Source: Mesorhizobium mediterraneum (lineage in GTDB: Bacteria > Pseudomonadota > Alphaproteobacteria > Rhizobiales > Rhizobiaceae). Taken from it: a DNA stretch of 64,000 nucleotides. A program made the translations under genes and the position numbers. Location: NCBI RefSeq assembly GCF_002284565.1, contig NZ_NPKI01000015.1, positions 124,001-188,000 on the forward strand. The letters run 5' to 3'. Below the pieces are notes generated by a model, which saw nothing but the letters and a program-made list of their open reading frames with translations, had not been told where the DNA came from and ran no database searches. Below, piece by piece: positions 3,003 to 45,782 of the stretch. Position 1 is the first letter of the stretch; the number at the start of each line of letters is the position of its first letter.

Positions 3003-4424
3003 ATGAGAGAAGCGCACAAGCAAACTTTGAACGCTATCATCGCCTCCCCTTCGGGCTCGACGCCCGCTGAGGCGCAAACCTTTCTCGATGCCCATCCCGA
3101 GATCGAAGCGTTCGACATAGTGCTGACCGACGCCAATGGCGTCGGCCGTGGCAAGATCGTGCGCCGGCATGAACTGATGAGCATCTTCGAGGGCGGCCGG
3201 CACATGCCGATATCCATCCTCGGCCTCGACATTACCGGCGAGGACGTTCACGAGACCGGGCTGATCTGGACGACCGGCGACGGCGACCTGCGGGCATGGC
3301 CGATCCCCGGCACGCTGGTGCCGCTGTTCGGCACACAGCCGCCGCGCGGCCAGGTGCTGATGGCGATGTATCATCTCGATGGTCAGCCCATGTCGTCTGA
3401 TCCACGGCTGGCGCTGGCGAGGCAGGTGGAGATACTGGCGGCCAAGGGCCTGCATCCAGCCGGCGCCTTCGAGCTCGAATTCTTCCTCCTCGCCAATGAG
3501 CGTGACGCCGACGGCAAGGTGCGACCGGCGAACGCGGTGCTCGACGGCCGCCGCTCGGCCAAGACCGAGGTCTATTCCGTCGACCATCTGCACGGCATGG
3601 AGCCGCTATTTTCCGACATCTACGCCGCGGCCAAGGTGCAAGGCATCCCGGCCGAGACGGTCATTTCCGAATATGCGCCCGGCCAGTACGAGCTGACGCT
3701 GAATTATCGCCAGGATGTGATGCGGGCGGCCGACGATCTCGTCATGCTGAAGCGGCTGGTGCGGGCACAGGCGCGCCGCCACGGCGTCACCGCTTGCTTC
3801 ATGGCCAAGCCGATCGAGAAGTATGCCGGCTCCGGCATGCATTTCCATGTCTCGCTGCAGGACAAGGCCGGCAAGAACGTCTTCGCTGAAGCCAGCGGCG
3901 AGACCTGGTCCTTGCCGCTGCTGCGCGGACTGGGCGGCCTCATCCAGACCATGGCCGAATCGATGCTGGTGTTCGCACCGCACGCCAATTCATGGCGTCG
4001 CTTCGTCTCGCAATCCTATGCCCCAGTGGCGCCGACCTGGGGCGTCAACAACCGCTCGGTGGCGCTGCGCGTGCCGGCAGGCGATGCGAAAAACCGGCGC
4101 ATCGAGCACCGGCCGTCGGGCGTCGACGCAAACCCCTATCTGGTCGCCGCAACCGTGCTGGCCGGCATCACCAGGGGTCTCGACGAAGGACTCGACCCCG
4201 GCCCCGAAACCACCGGCAATGGCTACGAATCGGCAATCACGCGCACGACCATGCCGGTAGACTGGCGCGCCGCGATCGAGGCCGCTCGCGCGTCGACGTT
4301 CCTCAAAGGAGCGTTGGGCGAAGACCTGCACCGGACATTCGTTGCGATCAAGCAATCCGAATATCTGCGCGTGGCGCGCACCGTCAGCGAGTTGGATTAT
4401 CATCTCTATCTGCATGAGGTGTGA
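3003..4424 (+). CDS. Glutamine synthetase family protein, gamma-glutamylamine synthetase-like
   Basis: 473 residues from the ATG at 3003; an in-frame start at 2961 would overlap the aminotransferase. GS catalytic motifs are present: the glutamate pair in FELEFF, YAPGQYELTL, the ATP/glutamate segment GSGMHFHVSL, and RIEHRPSGVDANPYL with the metal and substrate residues. The C-terminal ending SELDYHLYLHEV is typical of the GlnA3/PuuA-type ligases that join glutamate to an amine with ATP. No adenylylation-site tyrosine region like that of GlnA is evident. Paired with the upstream aminotransferase, it likely works in amine use as a nitrogen source; the amine is unknown. Confidence 0.82.
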   Translation: MREAHKQTLNAIIASPSGSTPAEAQTFLDAHPEIEAFDIVLTDANGVGRGKIVRRHELMSIFEGGRHMPISILGLDITGEDVHETGLIWTTGDGDLRAWPIPGTLVPLFGTQPPRGQVLMAMYHLDGQPMSSDPRLALARQVEILAAKGLHPAGAFELEFFLLANERDADGKVRPANAVLDGRRSAKTEVYSVDHLHGMEPLFSDIYAAAKVQGIPAETVISEYAPGQYELTLNYRQDVMRAADDLVMLKRLVRAQARRHGVTACFMAKPIEKYAGSGMHFHVSLQDKAGKNVFAEASGETWSLPLLRGLGGLIQTMAESMLVFAPHANSWRRFVSQSYAPVAPTWGVNNRSVALRVPAGDAKNRRIEHRPSGVDANPYLVAATVLAGITRGLDEGLDPGPETTGNGYESAITRTTMPVDWRAAIEAARASTFLKGALGEDLHRTFVAIKQSEYLRVARTVSELDYHLYLHEV

Positions 4425-4542
4425 GGATCGCATCGCCGGTCATTCTCCCGGCGAAAGCCGGGTCCGAGCTATTTGAAGGAACCTTTCCGGGGCTTCGCTC
4501 ATTCCGCATCTGATCGCAGCAGCGGACAAGGCCGCATCAGCC

Positions 4543-5235
4543 ATGATCGCCAGGATGCAGACAAATCCCGCGCCACGCCACGCCAAGGTGCAGGCAAGAC
4601 GCTGGCCCAAGCCTGAATTGCCTGAGACGGCGGAAGCGGACGGCGCAAGCACCATTCCCGAACTCAGCGAAGTGGCGAAAGCCTGCCGCCGCTGTTCGCT
4701 GTGGCGCAATGCGACACAGACTGTGTTCGGCGAAGGCCCTGACAAGGCCAAGGTGATTTTCGTCGGTGAACAGCCCGGCGACCAGGAGGATCTGGCCGGC
4801 AAACCTTTCGTCGGGCCTGCTGGCAAGGTCTTCGACGCAATCCTGGACGAAGCCGGCGTCGACCGGCTGAAAGTCTATGTCACCAACGCGGTCAAGCATT
4901 TCAAATTCGAGCCGCGCGGCAAGCGGCGCATCCACTCCAAGCCGAACGCCGGCGAGGTGCAGGCCTGCCGCTGGTGGCTCGACAAAGAGCTCGATCTGGT
5001 AAAACCCAATCTGGCTGTGGCGCTCGGCGCAACGGCGGCGCAGTCACTGCTCGGCAAAGTCGTGCCGATCATGAAGATGCGCGGCGCGGTCGTGGAGCGC
5101 GAGGATGGCCTGCGTGTGTTCGTCACGATCCATCCGTCCTTCATCCTGCGTATCCGCGAGCCGGCGGACAAACAGGCCGAACGCGAGCGGTTCCTGAAGG
5201 ATATGAAGGCGGTGAAGACGCTGATGGCCGCCTGA
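4543..5235 (+). CDS. udgX: UdgX-type uracil-DNA glycosylase / uracil-DNA cross-linking protein
   Basis: 230 residues. Family-4 UDG architecture with GEQPGDQED (75-83), GKPFVGPAGK (86-95) and the terminal HPSF motif (197-200). The diagnostic feature is the KRRIH loop at 127-131: in UdgX this histidine forms a covalent bond with the abasic site after uracil excision. CxxC at C48/C51 fits the iron-sulfur site of the family; VKHF replaces the VKC of ordinary family-4 enzymes, as known for UdgX. The N-terminal ~40 residues are low in conservation, so ATG 4555 is an alternative start. It stands alone rather than fused to a second domain. The convergent glycerate kinase gene ends 3 bases away. Confidence 0.88.
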   Translation: MIARMQTNPAPRHAKVQARRWPKPELPETAEADGASTIPELSEVAKACRRCSLWRNATQTVFGEGPDKAKVIFVGEQPGDQEDLAGKPFVGPAGKVFDAILDEAGVDRLKVYVTNAVKHFKFEPRGKRRIHSKPNAGEVQACRWWLDKELDLVKPNLAVALGATAAQSLLGKVVPIMKMRGAVVEREDGLRVFVTIHPSFILRIREPADKQAERERFLKDMKAVKTLMAA

Positions 5236-31785: not shown

Positions 31786-32412
31786 GTGAACCTTTTTGGG
31801 CCGATCGGCGACAGAGCAGACAGGAGCCAGGCGGCTCGACCGGCCATGACGGCAGCGACGGAAACCGACCGCGCGCTTGTCAGCCGGGTCGCGAAGGGCG
31901 ACCGTGCCGCCGTGCGGCTCCTGTTCATGCGCCACCACGCGCGGGTCTACCGCTTCGTGGTGCGCCAGACGGGATCGGAAATGATGGCCGATGATATCGC
32001 CAACGAGGTGTTTCTCGAACTCTGGCGCCAGGCGCCAGGCTTCGAGGGGCGCTCGGAAGTCTCGACATGGCTGCTCGGCATCGCCCGCTTCAAGGCGCTG
32101 TCGTCGCTGCGCAAGAAGAAGGAAGACCGGATCGACGACGATGACGCGGCCCAGGTCCCAGACAGCGCCGACACGCCGGAAGTCGTCACCATGAAGGAAG
32201 ACAAGGGCGCCGCTTTGCGGCGCTTCGTCGATGCCTTGCCGGAAGAGCACCGCACGGTGATCGACCTTGCCTATTACCACGGACAGTCGGTGACCGAGAT
32301 CGGGGAGGTGCTCGGCATCCCGGTTGCTACCGTCAAGACCCGGATGTTCTACGCCCGCAAGAAACTCGGCGAGGCGCTCAAGGCCGCCGGTTACGACAGG
32401 GGGTGGCCATGA
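31786..32412 (+). CDS. ECF-type RNA polymerase sigma factor
   Basis: 208 residues from GTG 31786 (GGCGGAAAGCG upstream); ATG 31846 is an alternative giving 188 residues. Sigma region 2 is at ADDIANEVFLELWRQA with FEGRSEVSTWLLGIAR; region 4 at SVTEIGEVLGIPVATVKTRM, FYARKKL. An extracytoplasmic function sigma factor. Its stop overlaps the next gene's ATG by 4 bases; that gene encodes a membrane protein with an anti-sigma-like N-terminus, and a subtilase follows. The signal is presumably periplasmic and may involve proteolysis. Confidence 0.92.
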   Translation: MNLFGPIGDRADRSQAARPAMTAATETDRALVSRVAKGDRAAVRLLFMRHHARVYRFVVRQTGSEMMADDIANEVFLELWRQAPGFEGRSEVSTWLLGIARFKALSSLRKKKEDRIDDDDAAQVPDSADTPEVVTMKEDKGAALRRFVDALPEEHRTVIDLAYYHGQSVTEIGEVLGIPVATVKTRMFYARKKLGEALKAAGYDRGWP

Positions 32413-33077
32413 GCGCCGCTGAAAAGATGTCGCGCCGCGATGAAATGGAAACGCTGCTGCCGTTCTATCTGAACGGCTCGCTGGAAGGCTCGGAACTCGA
32501 AGCCGTCGAGGAATGGCTGGCTTCCGATCCGGCGGCGCTTGCCGCACTCGGCGAGGCCGAAGCCGAATTCTCCAGCACCGCTGCATCCAATGAGGCGATC
32601 CGCCCGCCGGCCGATGCGCTCGGCCGCTTCACCCGGGCGCTCGACGCCGAAGCCGGCCCCGTGCGCGCGCCGGCGACATCGTCCTGGCTGGCGCAGGTGT
32701 GGGGCCGCTTCATGGCGGTGCCGGCCGGCGTCGCCTGGGCTGCGGCGGCAGCACTGCTTGCCCTCGTCATGGTGCAATCGGTTGTTCAGCCAGGCGGCAA
32801 GGACGGCGATTTCGAAATTGCCGGCCAACAAGGCGATCTGACGAAAATGCCGTTCGCGCTGGTGACGTTCAAGCCGGATGCGAAGATGGCCGACATTGTC
32901 GCTTTTCTTGGCGAACACCAGCTGAAGATTGCCGGCGGGCCGACCGCCGACGGTGTCTTCCGCCTTGGCATCCCGGCCGCAACCGCAGCCGATTATCAAA
33001 AAGTGCTTGCTCTTATTGCCGCCCAGCCTTTCGCGGAGGCTGTGGTCGAGGGAAGGAGACCGGTTGATGGCGGCTAG
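32409..33077 (+). CDS. Membrane anti-sigma factor with propeptide-like periplasmic domain
   Basis: 222 residues. Residues 8-50 form the helical anti-sigma domain (ETLLPFYLNGSLEGSELEAV) without the HxxxCxxC zinc ligands. One transmembrane helix at about 104-125. The periplasmic part, about 147-220, has the strand-helix-strand-helix-strand pattern FALVTFKPDAK, MADIVAFLGEHQLKI, VFRLGIPA, YQKVLALIAAQP, EAVVEGRRP. That order closely resembles the subtilase propeptide domain of the next gene. Start at ATG 32409 (ATGA overlap with the sigma gene). The propeptide comparison is by eye. Confidence 0.8.
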   Translation: MSAAEKMSRRDEMETLLPFYLNGSLEGSELEAVEEWLASDPAALAALGEAEAEFSSTAASNEAIRPPADALGRFTRALDAEAGPVRAPATSSWLAQVWGRFMAVPAGVAWAAAAALLALVMVQSVVQPGGKDGDFEIAGQQGDLTKMPFALVTFKPDAKMADIVAFLGEHQLKIAGGPTADGVFRLGIPAATAADYQKVLALIAAQPFAEAVVEGRRPVDGG

Positions 33078-34539
33078 GGCGGTCATTGGGTTTGCGGCGC
33101 TCCTTGTGGCGGCGATGACGCTCGCCGCCGCGCCCGCTTTGGCGCAGACCAATGATCCAAACCTCACCCAGACGGAAATCGACTGCCTCAACCGGGCGAC
33201 GGCGGCGGCCGACTGTATCGAGGACGATACAAGAGACGGCAGCGGCGAAAAGCCCGGCGCTGGTTCCGCCGCGACAAATGCGGTCGTTCTTCCTGCGCTG
33301 ATCGTTGACCTGTTTCCCAACCCGGTCGGCGGCGGCCAAGCTCCGCTGCCGACGCCCGATCCACGCCGCAATCCGGCCGGTCGGGCACTGCCGCCGCAGG
33401 CCGCCGGTGCGCCTGCGATACAGGCCGCCGCGACGGGCGGTCCGATCGTTTCGCCCAGCGATCTCGTCGCGGCCGAGCCGCCGCGCGCCGTCATCGGTGA
33501 TTTCGTGCCCGACGAGGTGCTGGTGACGGTAGACGGCGACGCCGTCCAGCAGATCGCCGCCTCATTTGGCCTCGAGGTGCGCTCGCAGCGCCAGTCTCTG
33601 CTGCTCGGCACCACGCTGGTGCGCTTCGGCATTCCCGATGGCCGACCGGTCGGCGTCGTGCTGGCGCAGCTTGCCGCCGACGGCCGCACCATGCGGCGCG
33701 AGCCCAACCATATCTACTCGCTGCAACAGGCAGCCAGCATCGTCAATTATGCCTTCGAGCGCATCGCGCTGGATTCGAAAGCGGCCAGCGGCGAGAATGT
33801 GCGCGTCGCCGTCATCGACACCGCCATCGACGATGCCAATCCAGCACTCTCCGGCGTCATCGTCGATCAGTTCGACGCCATGCCCGATGTGCCGATCGAG
33901 GCGCGCGATCATGGCACCTCGATCGACGGCCTGATCGCCGGCGTCGGCGCGCTCAAAGGCATGGCGCCGGGCGCGAAAATCTACCATGCCCGAGCTTTCG
34001 AGGGCGGCAAGTCGACCATGGACATCATCCTGTCGGCGCTCGACTGGGCGGCAAGCCAAGATGTTCGCATCATCAATATGAGCTTCGTCGGACCGAAGAA
34101 CGACCTGCTCGGCATCGCCTGCCGCAATGCTCGCGCCTTGGGCATCGTGCTGGTCGCCGCCGCCGGCAACAACGGGCCGAAGGCGCCCTACGGCTACCCC
34201 GCCGCCTTCGACGGCGTCATCGCGGTGACGGCCACTGATGCCAAGGACGGGCTGATGCAGCAGGCTAATCGTGGCGCCTACGTCTTCCTCTCCGCTCCTG
34301 GCGTCGAGATGGTGGCGCCGAGCGGCGCCGGCTCGGATGTGGTCACCGGCACCTCATTTGCCGCAGCCATTGTGACCGGCGCGATCGCCAATCTGTTGCA
34401 TGCCGCGCCCGATCGTTCCGCCGACTGGGTCGAGAAGGCATTGGCCGGCACGGCCAAGGATCTCGGCCCCAAGGGACGAGACAATGATTTCGGCTATGGT
34501 CTGCTGGACACCAAGGCGGCCGCGGCAGCGAAGGAATAG
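33067..34539 (+). CDS. S8 family serine peptidase (subtilisin-like), secreted
   Basis: 490 residues. Signal peptide to about residue 26 (LAAAPALAQ). A low-complexity linker follows, then a propeptide-like domain at about 148-220 (DEVLVTVDGDAVQQIAASFG, LVRFGIPDG, EPNHIYSLQ). Catalytic triad D251 in VAVIDTAID, H282 in ARDHGTSIDG and S430 in TGTSFAAAIV, with oxyanion N368 in AAAGNNG. Start at ATG 33067, overlapping the anti-sigma stop by 11 bases; the long upstream extension is shadow. Periplasmic or secreted protease, probably tied to the sigma/anti-sigma pair. Confidence 0.92.
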   Translation: MAARAVIGFAALLVAAMTLAAAPALAQTNDPNLTQTEIDCLNRATAAADCIEDDTRDGSGEKPGAGSAATNAVVLPALIVDLFPNPVGGGQAPLPTPDPRRNPAGRALPPQAAGAPAIQAAATGGPIVSPSDLVAAEPPRAVIGDFVPDEVLVTVDGDAVQQIAASFGLEVRSQRQSLLLGTTLVRFGIPDGRPVGVVLAQLAADGRTMRREPNHIYSLQQAASIVNYAFERIALDSKAASGENVRVAVIDTAIDDANPALSGVIVDQFDAMPDVPIEARDHGTSIDGLIAGVGALKGMAPGAKIYHARAFEGGKSTMDIILSALDWAASQDVRIINMSFVGPKNDLLGIACRNARALGIVLVAAAGNNGPKAPYGYPAAFDGVIAVTATDAKDGLMQQANRGAYVFLSAPGVEMVAPSGAGSDVVTGTSFAAAIVTGAIANLLHAAPDRSADWVEKALAGTAKDLGPKGRDNDFGYGLLDTKAAAAAKE

Positions 34540-44982: not shown

Positions 44983-45504
44983 TTTTGGTACTCCAGTATC
45001 TTAGTTTTCCGTCCGGCTAGCGGCGTGTCTTGGAAGGAATTCGCGTCGTTCGGACAGCCCCGATGTGGGAAGGCCATCCCGCAGATTCCAATCACGAAGT
45101 TGTTCCGTGTGGACCAAGAATCTACACCTTGAAATTGTACCAGACGCTTCTACAGGCGTTGCTTTATCTTTTATTTTCAATGGCTTATGCCAAAGTCGCC
45201 ATTTGACGATTTGACGGATTGGCGGACCTGCGTTCACAGCGTCATGCACGCATTGTCAACAGAAACGAACCGTTCGGTTCGATTTTAGAAGCGGCTAATA
45301 GTCACTTTTGGAAACTGTTAACCTTCTTTGCCTCCGCCGCGGGTCGGAATTCGATGTCACGGCGGCCGACAATGGTGGCCGAAAAAATGGGTTTCAGCCC
45401 TGCAATTACCAACCTGCACGTTTCGCGGGCCGTGTCGCGCCGCATGGATACGATGTCGCTTTCATGCCGACAGTCAGCTGGCCGTCATGATTAGATGACG
45501 CCAT
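44983..45504. other. AT-richer intergenic region, no gene seen
   Basis: About 520 bases between the first DUF680 gene and the cobalamin riboswitch. Several short frames exist but none has a ribosome site with coding-like composition. The stretch around 45120-45200 is clearly more AT-rich than the flanks and probably carries divergent promoters for the DUF680 genes and the riboswitch transcript. Confidence 0.5.
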
Positions 45505-45680
45505 CTCAGGTGCCGCTTGGTGACGACGAAGCGGAGAATTGGGAAGCCGGTCAAATCCCGGCGCTGCCCCCGCAACGGTGGTGGAGTTCAAGTCGCAACG
45601 GGAGACCACTGGGCCACAAGCCTGGGAAGGTGTCGCGACTGTCCGCAAGGACACTCCAGAGCCCGGAAACCAGCCCGAGG
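45505..45680 (+). promoter_or_regulatory. Cobalamin (B12) riboswitch
   Basis: The ordered conserved blocks are all present on the plus strand: CAGGTGCC start, GGGAAGCCGGT, AATCCCGGCGCTGCCCCCGC with AACGGT directly after, ACCACTGGGCCACAAGCCTG, GGGAAGGTG, and the B12-box end CCCGGAAACCAGCCC. This is the class I adenosylcobalamin aptamer arrangement. The next intact plus-strand gene is gbcA at 45907, 226 bases on. A short frame at 45722 with AGAGGTGG before ATGATG leads only into the repeat at 45783. Confidence 0.95.
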
Positions 45681-45782
45681 TGTCTAGACTCGACTGATCG
45701 CGGTGGGCGGTCAAGAGGTGGATGATGCATGTCTGGCCTGTCGCCGGCGTGCAAGCGATCCTTCCTCAATCACCACCAGTTC

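Follow-up and report, generated by a model that had tools for sequence, protein, structure and literature searches.

We analyzed a 64,000-nucleotide stretch of the Mesorhizobium mediterraneum genome (contig NZ_NPKI01000015.1, positions 124,001 to 188,000; hereafter the window), in which three consecutive overlapping frames encode a sigma factor of the extracytoplasmic function (ECF) type, a putative anti-sigma factor and a subtilase of peptidase family S8. Our best overall explanation of this trio, put forward tentatively and with somewhat less than even confidence, is a conserved three-gene envelope-signalling module composed of (i) the ECF sigma factor, (ii) a predicted single-pass anti-sigma factor, whose presumed periplasmic C-terminal domain (CTD) belongs to the S8-prodomain superfamily (Fervidolysin_NPro-like), and (iii) a predicted secreted S8 protease with a propeptide of its own. 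The coordinates and peptide segments given for the anti-sigma factor and the subtilase by a first-pass annotation of this DNA proved correct when re-checked against the window. The locus contains the following features:

31787-31812, plus strand: conserved ECF-type promoter-like element (TGAACC-N16-CGAC), located 5′ of the sigma factor gene
31846-32412, plus strand: ECF sigma factor gene, with an ATG start at 31846
32409-33077, plus strand: anti-sigma factor gene (222 aa), with an ATGA overlap with the sigma factor gene
32721-32783, plus strand: predicted transmembrane segment of the anti-sigma factor (residues ~105-125; hydrophobic helix 106-125 in the model, of modest local confidence)
32844-33074, plus strand: CTD of the anti-sigma factor (residues 146-222), assigned to the S8-prodomain family by its fold, by family profile homology and by PF22148 matches in sister proteins; predicted periplasmic
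33054-33069, plus strand: Shine-Dalgarno-like AGGAGA and ATG of the S8 gene, within the final anti-sigma codons
33067-34539, plus strand: S8 subtilase gene (490 aa), with a signal-peptide-like N-terminus (predicted secreted)
33487-33729, plus strand: propeptide domain of the S8 protease (residues 141-221), from the model and a PF22148 match of 17.1 bits in the excised region

The sigma factor matched the curated ECF subfamily model PRK12515 (NCBIfam NF009168) with 292.6 bits (cut-off 236), and its regions 2 (PF04542, Sigma70_r2) and 4 (PF08281, r4_2) both scored above their cut-offs. The PRK12515 match starts at residue 21 of the longer frame P0001, i.e. at the ATG at position 31846; an alternative upstream GTG start (31786) overlaps the promoter-like element. 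TGAACC was present in all 23 upstream regions of close relatives, and TGAACC-N14..18-CGAC in 21 of them (the promoter scan did not locate locus L009), while a TGAACC...CGA element also precedes the sigma factor gene in the more distant loci L092, L093 and L104. In an alignment inspected by eye, L006, L007 and L011 do not keep open the frame that starts at the upstream GTG, which suggests that the promoter-like element is kept as DNA. Its form points to possible autoregulation of the operon by the sigma factor.

The anti-sigma factor had no match above a cut-off in Pfam, and its matches to curated NCBIfam models stayed below threshold (NF052375, 33.4 bits, cut-off 100; NF010501, 28.7 bits, cut-off 225), so its probable identity was derived from these weak matches, from the position of the gene and from the architecture of the protein. 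The model shows helices within residues 9-81, followed by helix 106-125 and then by the CTD. The CTD family has a conserved GP...G turn (G in 56, P in 54 and G in 52 of 59 sequences) and tails of variable length. A GR[RK]P tail is kept in 14 of the 16 members of the window's anti-sigma family; a functional role for it was considered and dropped, since in the window its codons carry the ribosome site of the S8 gene and the tail may be kept as DNA.

The S8 protease scored 136.9 bits against PF00082 (cut-off 21.8), and alignment showed the conserved triad D251, H282 and S430, which identifies it as a subtilase. We claim the full triad for this protein only, because a script applied to 70 S8 frames missed the Asp in three of them and the serine pattern in further frames, some of which are cut by locus ends. 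In a similarity search with the window's S8 protein the nearest named loci were those of Mesorhizobium. The S8 model could be aligned to pro-subtilisin E (3whi; Z 31.0) from residue 148 and to fervidolysin (Z 28.7) from residue 141. In the N-terminal region of the protein (window ~33280-33330), ahead of a low-confidence linker, a short motif, approximately VxLPxLLVDLF, is kept in the aligned relatives.

The first-pass annotation had noticed a common succession of strands and helices in the anti-sigma factor and the subtilase, and structure prediction (AlphaFold2) bore this out: both domains have the same beta-alpha-beta-beta-alpha-beta order with high local confidence. The elements of the CTD are strand 149-154, helix 160-169, strands 173-176 and 183-187, helix 193-204 and strand 209-214, and those of the S8 propeptide strand 146-155, helix 160-167, strands 170-177 and 182-188, helix 195-203 and strand 208-219. 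The predicted local distance difference test score (pLDDT) of the anti-sigma model was 89-96 for residue blocks between 151 and 220 and 76 for residues 141-150 (whole-protein mean 77.5; predicted template modelling score, pTM, 0.38), and that of the S8 model was 84-96 for blocks between residues 141 and 220 (whole-protein mean 62.2; pTM 0.63). Foldseek assigned the CTD a probability of 1.00 of matching the subtilisin propeptides 2z58_B, 1spb_P and 1scj_B, with E values of only 0.02-0.05. The beta-alpha-beta-beta-alpha-beta (ferredoxin-like) fold is common, and we therefore tested homology beyond the fold. VIA-align ranked Lrp/AsnC domains (Z 8.4) above propeptides (Z ≤6.9), so that the fold alone could not be taken as proof, and three ferredoxin-like controls were included in the profile comparisons.

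Single sequences and shallow alignments gave no sign of a relationship: pairwise BLASTP of the anti-sigma factor against the S8 protein returned nothing of note, phmmer of the anti-sigma factor against PDB sequences found no match, a search of PDB sequences with 25 CTDs as queries gave a best E value of 0.23 with no propeptide among 10 matches, and profiles of 16 CTD and 16 propeptide rows lent no support (probability 0.2). Deep profiles were built from two sets collected independently of their similarity to each other, one of 59 non-redundant CTDs and one of 45 propeptides; the window's own CTD was dropped from the former as redundant and is represented by its close relatives. Aligned with hhalign over 67 columns, these profiles yielded E values of 3.6e-5 and, in the reverse direction, 9.7e-6. 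The real score of 29.4 compares with 14.1 for the best of 150 column shuffles, with at most 15.8 for reversed profiles, six slices of the S8 catalytic domain and the sigma factor, and with at most 16.0 for the Pfam families YCII, AsnC and ACT (25, 16 and 13 sequences, respectively; the ACT locus L246 was left out), which we take to be ferredoxin-like folds.

Searches with hidden Markov models (HMMs) over 6701 locus frames were consistent with this result. At E ≤10 the propeptide HMM matched 12 of 82 anti-sigma frames versus 18 of 6549 others (Fisher 4e-16), and the reciprocal search with the CTD HMM recovered five of 70 S8 frames, in four cases within the propeptide region, versus 13 of 6549 others (Fisher 9e-7); in reading these values it should be borne in mind that the sequences lack independence and that individual matches are weak. 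Against PF22148 (Fervidolysin prodomain; gathering cut-off 21), six of the 25 CTDs matched at E ≤1, and the cut-off was passed by those of L051 (29.0 bits) and L047 (24.1 bits), two species of one genus, among the 10 of 25 CTDs scanned singly. It was passed likewise by the S8 propeptides of L116 (29.9 bits) and L092 (24.1 bits), two of 10 S8 proteins scanned, and by that of the sister genome G073 (22.8 bits). A PF22148 search of 150 genomes gave 10 matches, which included the anti-sigma factor of G187 (the genome of L047), two S8 propeptides of such loci (G559 and G073) and L253. A relationship to fervidolysin-like propeptides, one of the families against which the first-pass annotation had proposed a profile search, was recovered in sister CTDs and sister propeptides, and not in the window's own domains: its CTD had no PF22148 match up to E 10, and its propeptide stayed below the cut-off. 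On these profile comparisons, we regard the CTDs and the S8 propeptides as homologous at the family-profile level.

The L253 match lies in a small protein (1111-1704 of that locus) with a signal-peptide-like start and a PF22148-like region (23.7 bits), encoded directly 3′ of an S8 gene; it is possibly a stand-alone prodomain inhibitor.

The genomic linkage of the CTD with S8 proteases was analyzed in loci gathered by anti-sigma or CTD searches and never by S8, whose neighbours within 1.5 to ~6 kb were scored with HMMs. Loci found by S8 similarity were not counted, and L147 and L154, in which the contig breaks off at the gene, were put aside; L152 was counted as an S8 locus on account of its propeptide at the contig end (6e-7). 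The CTD is not universal: it was found in 17 of 151 genomes of the family, 12 of 289 of the class sample (excluding a match in L052, judged spurious since the locus holds neither sigma factor nor S8), 35 of 398 of the phylum sample and 16 of 274 of another class. Of the 74 loci that could be assessed, 67 have an S8 gene adjoining the CTD anti-sigma gene. This holds for all 49 alphaproteobacterial loci (17 from the family, 11 from the class and 21 new ones from the phylum sample), and the 27 loci of other classes comprise 18 with S8, four with a C14 caspase, three with neither and two cut by contig ends. The anti-sigma genes regularly found without S8 that the first-pass annotation would have held against its idea are therefore absent from the alphaproteobacteria and occur in part outside them (seven of 25 assessable loci). 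None of three anti-sigma factors without a CTD, a small number, had S8 within ~4-5 kb.

In 34 of 40 genomes searched with PF00082 (out of 74 with a locus) an S8 gene lies at the CTD locus; 12 genomes gave only one S8 match each, and in 11 of them this is the gene at the locus. With uniform placement and rounded genome sizes, only 0.32 of the 40 genomes would be expected to carry S8 in the 12-kb span, and chance co-location was rejected. The S8 gene is located 5′ of the sigma factor gene in L092, L093 and L116, and the anti-sigma gene is inverted in L098 and L103; the variable gene order indicates that the association of S8 and anti-sigma factor is not that of one frozen operon.

Several of these loci contained further genes. 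A short C14-profile match lies ~4 kb off in the S8 locus L115, and L086 and L090 also encode a second short protein with a transmembrane segment plus CTD and a sulfate-permease-like frame. In L102 a longer protein (4067-5227), which has a transmembrane-like segment, terminates in a CTD-like domain; no sigma factor, S8 or C14 gene was found there, and the neighbours appear, by eye, to be type VI secretion and kinase-like genes.

Since the CTD appears homologous to the propeptide of the very protease to which it is linked, our leading idea is a functional contact through which the protease acts on the anti-sigma factor. We favour, tentatively and at a level of confidence that falls short of even, a reading in which the prodomain-family CTD serves the S8 protease as a docking site through which it controls the anti-sigma factor. 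The anti-sigma factor would hold the sigma factor at the membrane; the mature S8 protease, freed of its own propeptide, would dock on the CTD by the surface that this propeptide had occupied; the docked protease would then cleave the anti-sigma factor or otherwise relieve its action; and the released sigma factor would act at the TGAACC-N16-CGAC promoter to activate the operon that encodes it. The docking, the direction of control, the cleavage, the autoregulation and the membrane topology are all inferred. For many ECF anti-sigma factors, what the sensor domain responds to is not known; here the CTD family and its near-constant genetic partner point to a specific input, the S8 protease or its maturation state. 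A more far-reaching version, which we consider possible and rather doubtful, is that a protease-propeptide pair has been taken apart to build a transcription switch, in which a membrane-tethered prodomain homologue reads the amount or maturation of a dedicated periplasmic S8 protease and a C14 protease fills the same slot in some proteobacteria. If the favoured reading is true, it represents a signalling design built on protease-propeptide recognition, and the CTD profile could locate the same design in other proteobacterial genomes.

Several observations weigh against docking, beside the VIA-align ranking given above. The segment that leads from beta4 of the propeptides into the protease domain carries a PN..Y signature (N in 34 and Y in 31 of 45), the CTDs have no counterpart of these columns, and in this segment they do not resemble a working inhibitory propeptide. 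The CTD does not stand in for a missing propeptide, since the S8 protease brings one of its own. As we read it from strand alternation, the CTD's exposed sheet face is fairly polar and variable. In partial Mantel tests (38 loci kept of 56), the correlation between CTD and propeptide was not significant (r 0.10, p 0.06, falling to 0.04, p 0.28, when the mature domain was controlled for as well), and that between CTD and mature S8 (r 0.14, p 0.009) was no larger than that between CTD and sigma factor (r 0.14, p 0.007), with sigma factor and mature S8 giving r 0.61 (p 0.0005), a pattern that we read as co-inheritance of the trio rather than as evidence of contact. Four non-alphaproteobacterial loci hold a Peptidase_C14 caspase and no S8 (L086, L088 and L090 by Pfam, L155 with an HMM derived from the other three), the caspase gene in L086 and L090 not being next to the anti-sigma gene, and L102, L145 and L149 hold neither protease in the scored neighbourhood. 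L145 and L149 come from one family and are sigma/anti-sigma pairs whose CTD ends are very propeptide-like (FAEP); genome G881 had no S8 match anywhere. The first-pass annotation had proposed that the protease binds the anti-sigma domain as a propeptide mimic. The shared fold, the profile homology and the S8 linkage agree with this proposal, and strict mimicry is opposed by the missing PN..Y, the possible retention of the GR[RK]P tail as DNA, the C14-linked and protease-free loci and the non-significant coevolution; the mechanism is better stated loosely, as control via a prodomain-family docking domain, and in that form is plausible but unproven.

The most serious competing explanation, which we also hold to be possible and distinctly less than probable, is that the S8 protease is a mere output of the sigma factor, and that the CTD senses some other periplasmic ligand or stress and is related by descent to S8 prodomains without touching this protease. 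The position of the promoter-like element before the operon and the existence of C14-linked and protease-free loci fit such an arrangement, as does the ECF26 system RpoE6-EcfR6 of Sinorhizobium meliloti, in which the neighbouring, divergent serine protease gene SMa0142 is a reported sigma target whose expression rises on RpoE6 overexpression (cited part of PMC6180224). A similar S8/ECF/anti-sigma locus (L156) occurs in the genome of the window, yet CTD searches found no second CTD in that genome. This explanation does not account for the homology of the sensor to the propeptide of the protease linked in 67 of the 74 loci. In addition, a rough scan 5′ of the separately placed S8 genes (L092, L093, L116, L098 and L103; approximate S8 starts) revealed no TGAACC...CG element, which is weak evidence, because L098 and L103 lack the element before the sigma factor gene too.

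If the S8 protease (C14 in other lineages) were instead a dedicated anti-sigma-cutting protease and the CTD merely a substrate region or shield, with no propeptide-like docking, the alternation of the partner between two unrelated protease families around a constant CTD would be readily understood, and stepwise anti-sigma proteolysis is established for RseA/DegS/RseP (cited parts of PMC8103513 and PMC4183432); the homology of CTD and propeptide would then become a coincidence, and we judge this explanation unlikely. Less likely still is the reverse direction, in which the CTD acts as a membrane-tethered inhibitor or folding aid that keeps S8 inactive until the anti-sigma factor is lost. The prodomain family relationship of the CTD and the presence of the free-standing propeptide-fold inhibitor POIA1 among the VIA-align structural matches (1itp, Z 6.5) speak for it, and the post-beta4 signature missing from the CTDs and the propeptide that S8 already possesses speak against it.

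Several known systems resemble parts of the proposed module. The CTD shares with the Fervidolysin_NPro-like and subtilisin propeptides (PF22148; 1r6v, 1spb) its predicted fold and family profile homology, with two sister CTDs over the cut-off; unlike them, it is carried on an anti-sigma factor behind a predicted transmembrane helix, has the GP...G turn and lacks a PN..Y segment leading into a protease. POIA1 likewise has a propeptide fold apart from a protease; it is, however, a free protein and inhibits through its C-terminus, whereas the CTD tails vary from 0 to 32 residues beyond the last matched column. The regulated intramembrane proteolysis of the RseA/DegS/RseP and RsiV/RsiW systems also involves a membrane anti-sigma factor, and the module described here may have a periplasmic protease partner as well; neither a dedicated S8 protease nor a sensor of the prodomain type is known to us from those systems.

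According to the cited part of PMC6180224, the RpoE6-EcfR6/SMa0142 locus combines, like the window, a serine protease gene with neighbouring genes for an ECF sigma factor and a single-pass anti-sigma factor (predicted as such in the window); unlike in the window, the protease gene is divergent and a reported target, and the comparable locus in the window's genome gave no CTD match. In that locus (L156, 5347-8233), another S8 gene of the genome is divergent from an ECF sigma/anti-sigma pair, a layout which resembles that of RpoE6/SMa0142. The genomic context of ECF54 includes carboxypeptidase, subtilase and CHAT-domain proteins, so that, as in the loci described here, an ECF sigma factor has a subtilase and caspase-related domains in its vicinity; in contrast to the window, ECF54 is described in the cited part of the same source (PMC8999054) as being without an anti-sigma factor, and proteolysis of the sigma factor itself is proposed. 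Among the matches listed in our literature search, which did not extend to the main ECF reclassification, no prodomain-type anti-sigma factor was described.

Elsewhere in the window, the sole Rfam match at the gathering threshold was a Cobalamin riboswitch (45491-45692, plus strand; 104 bits).

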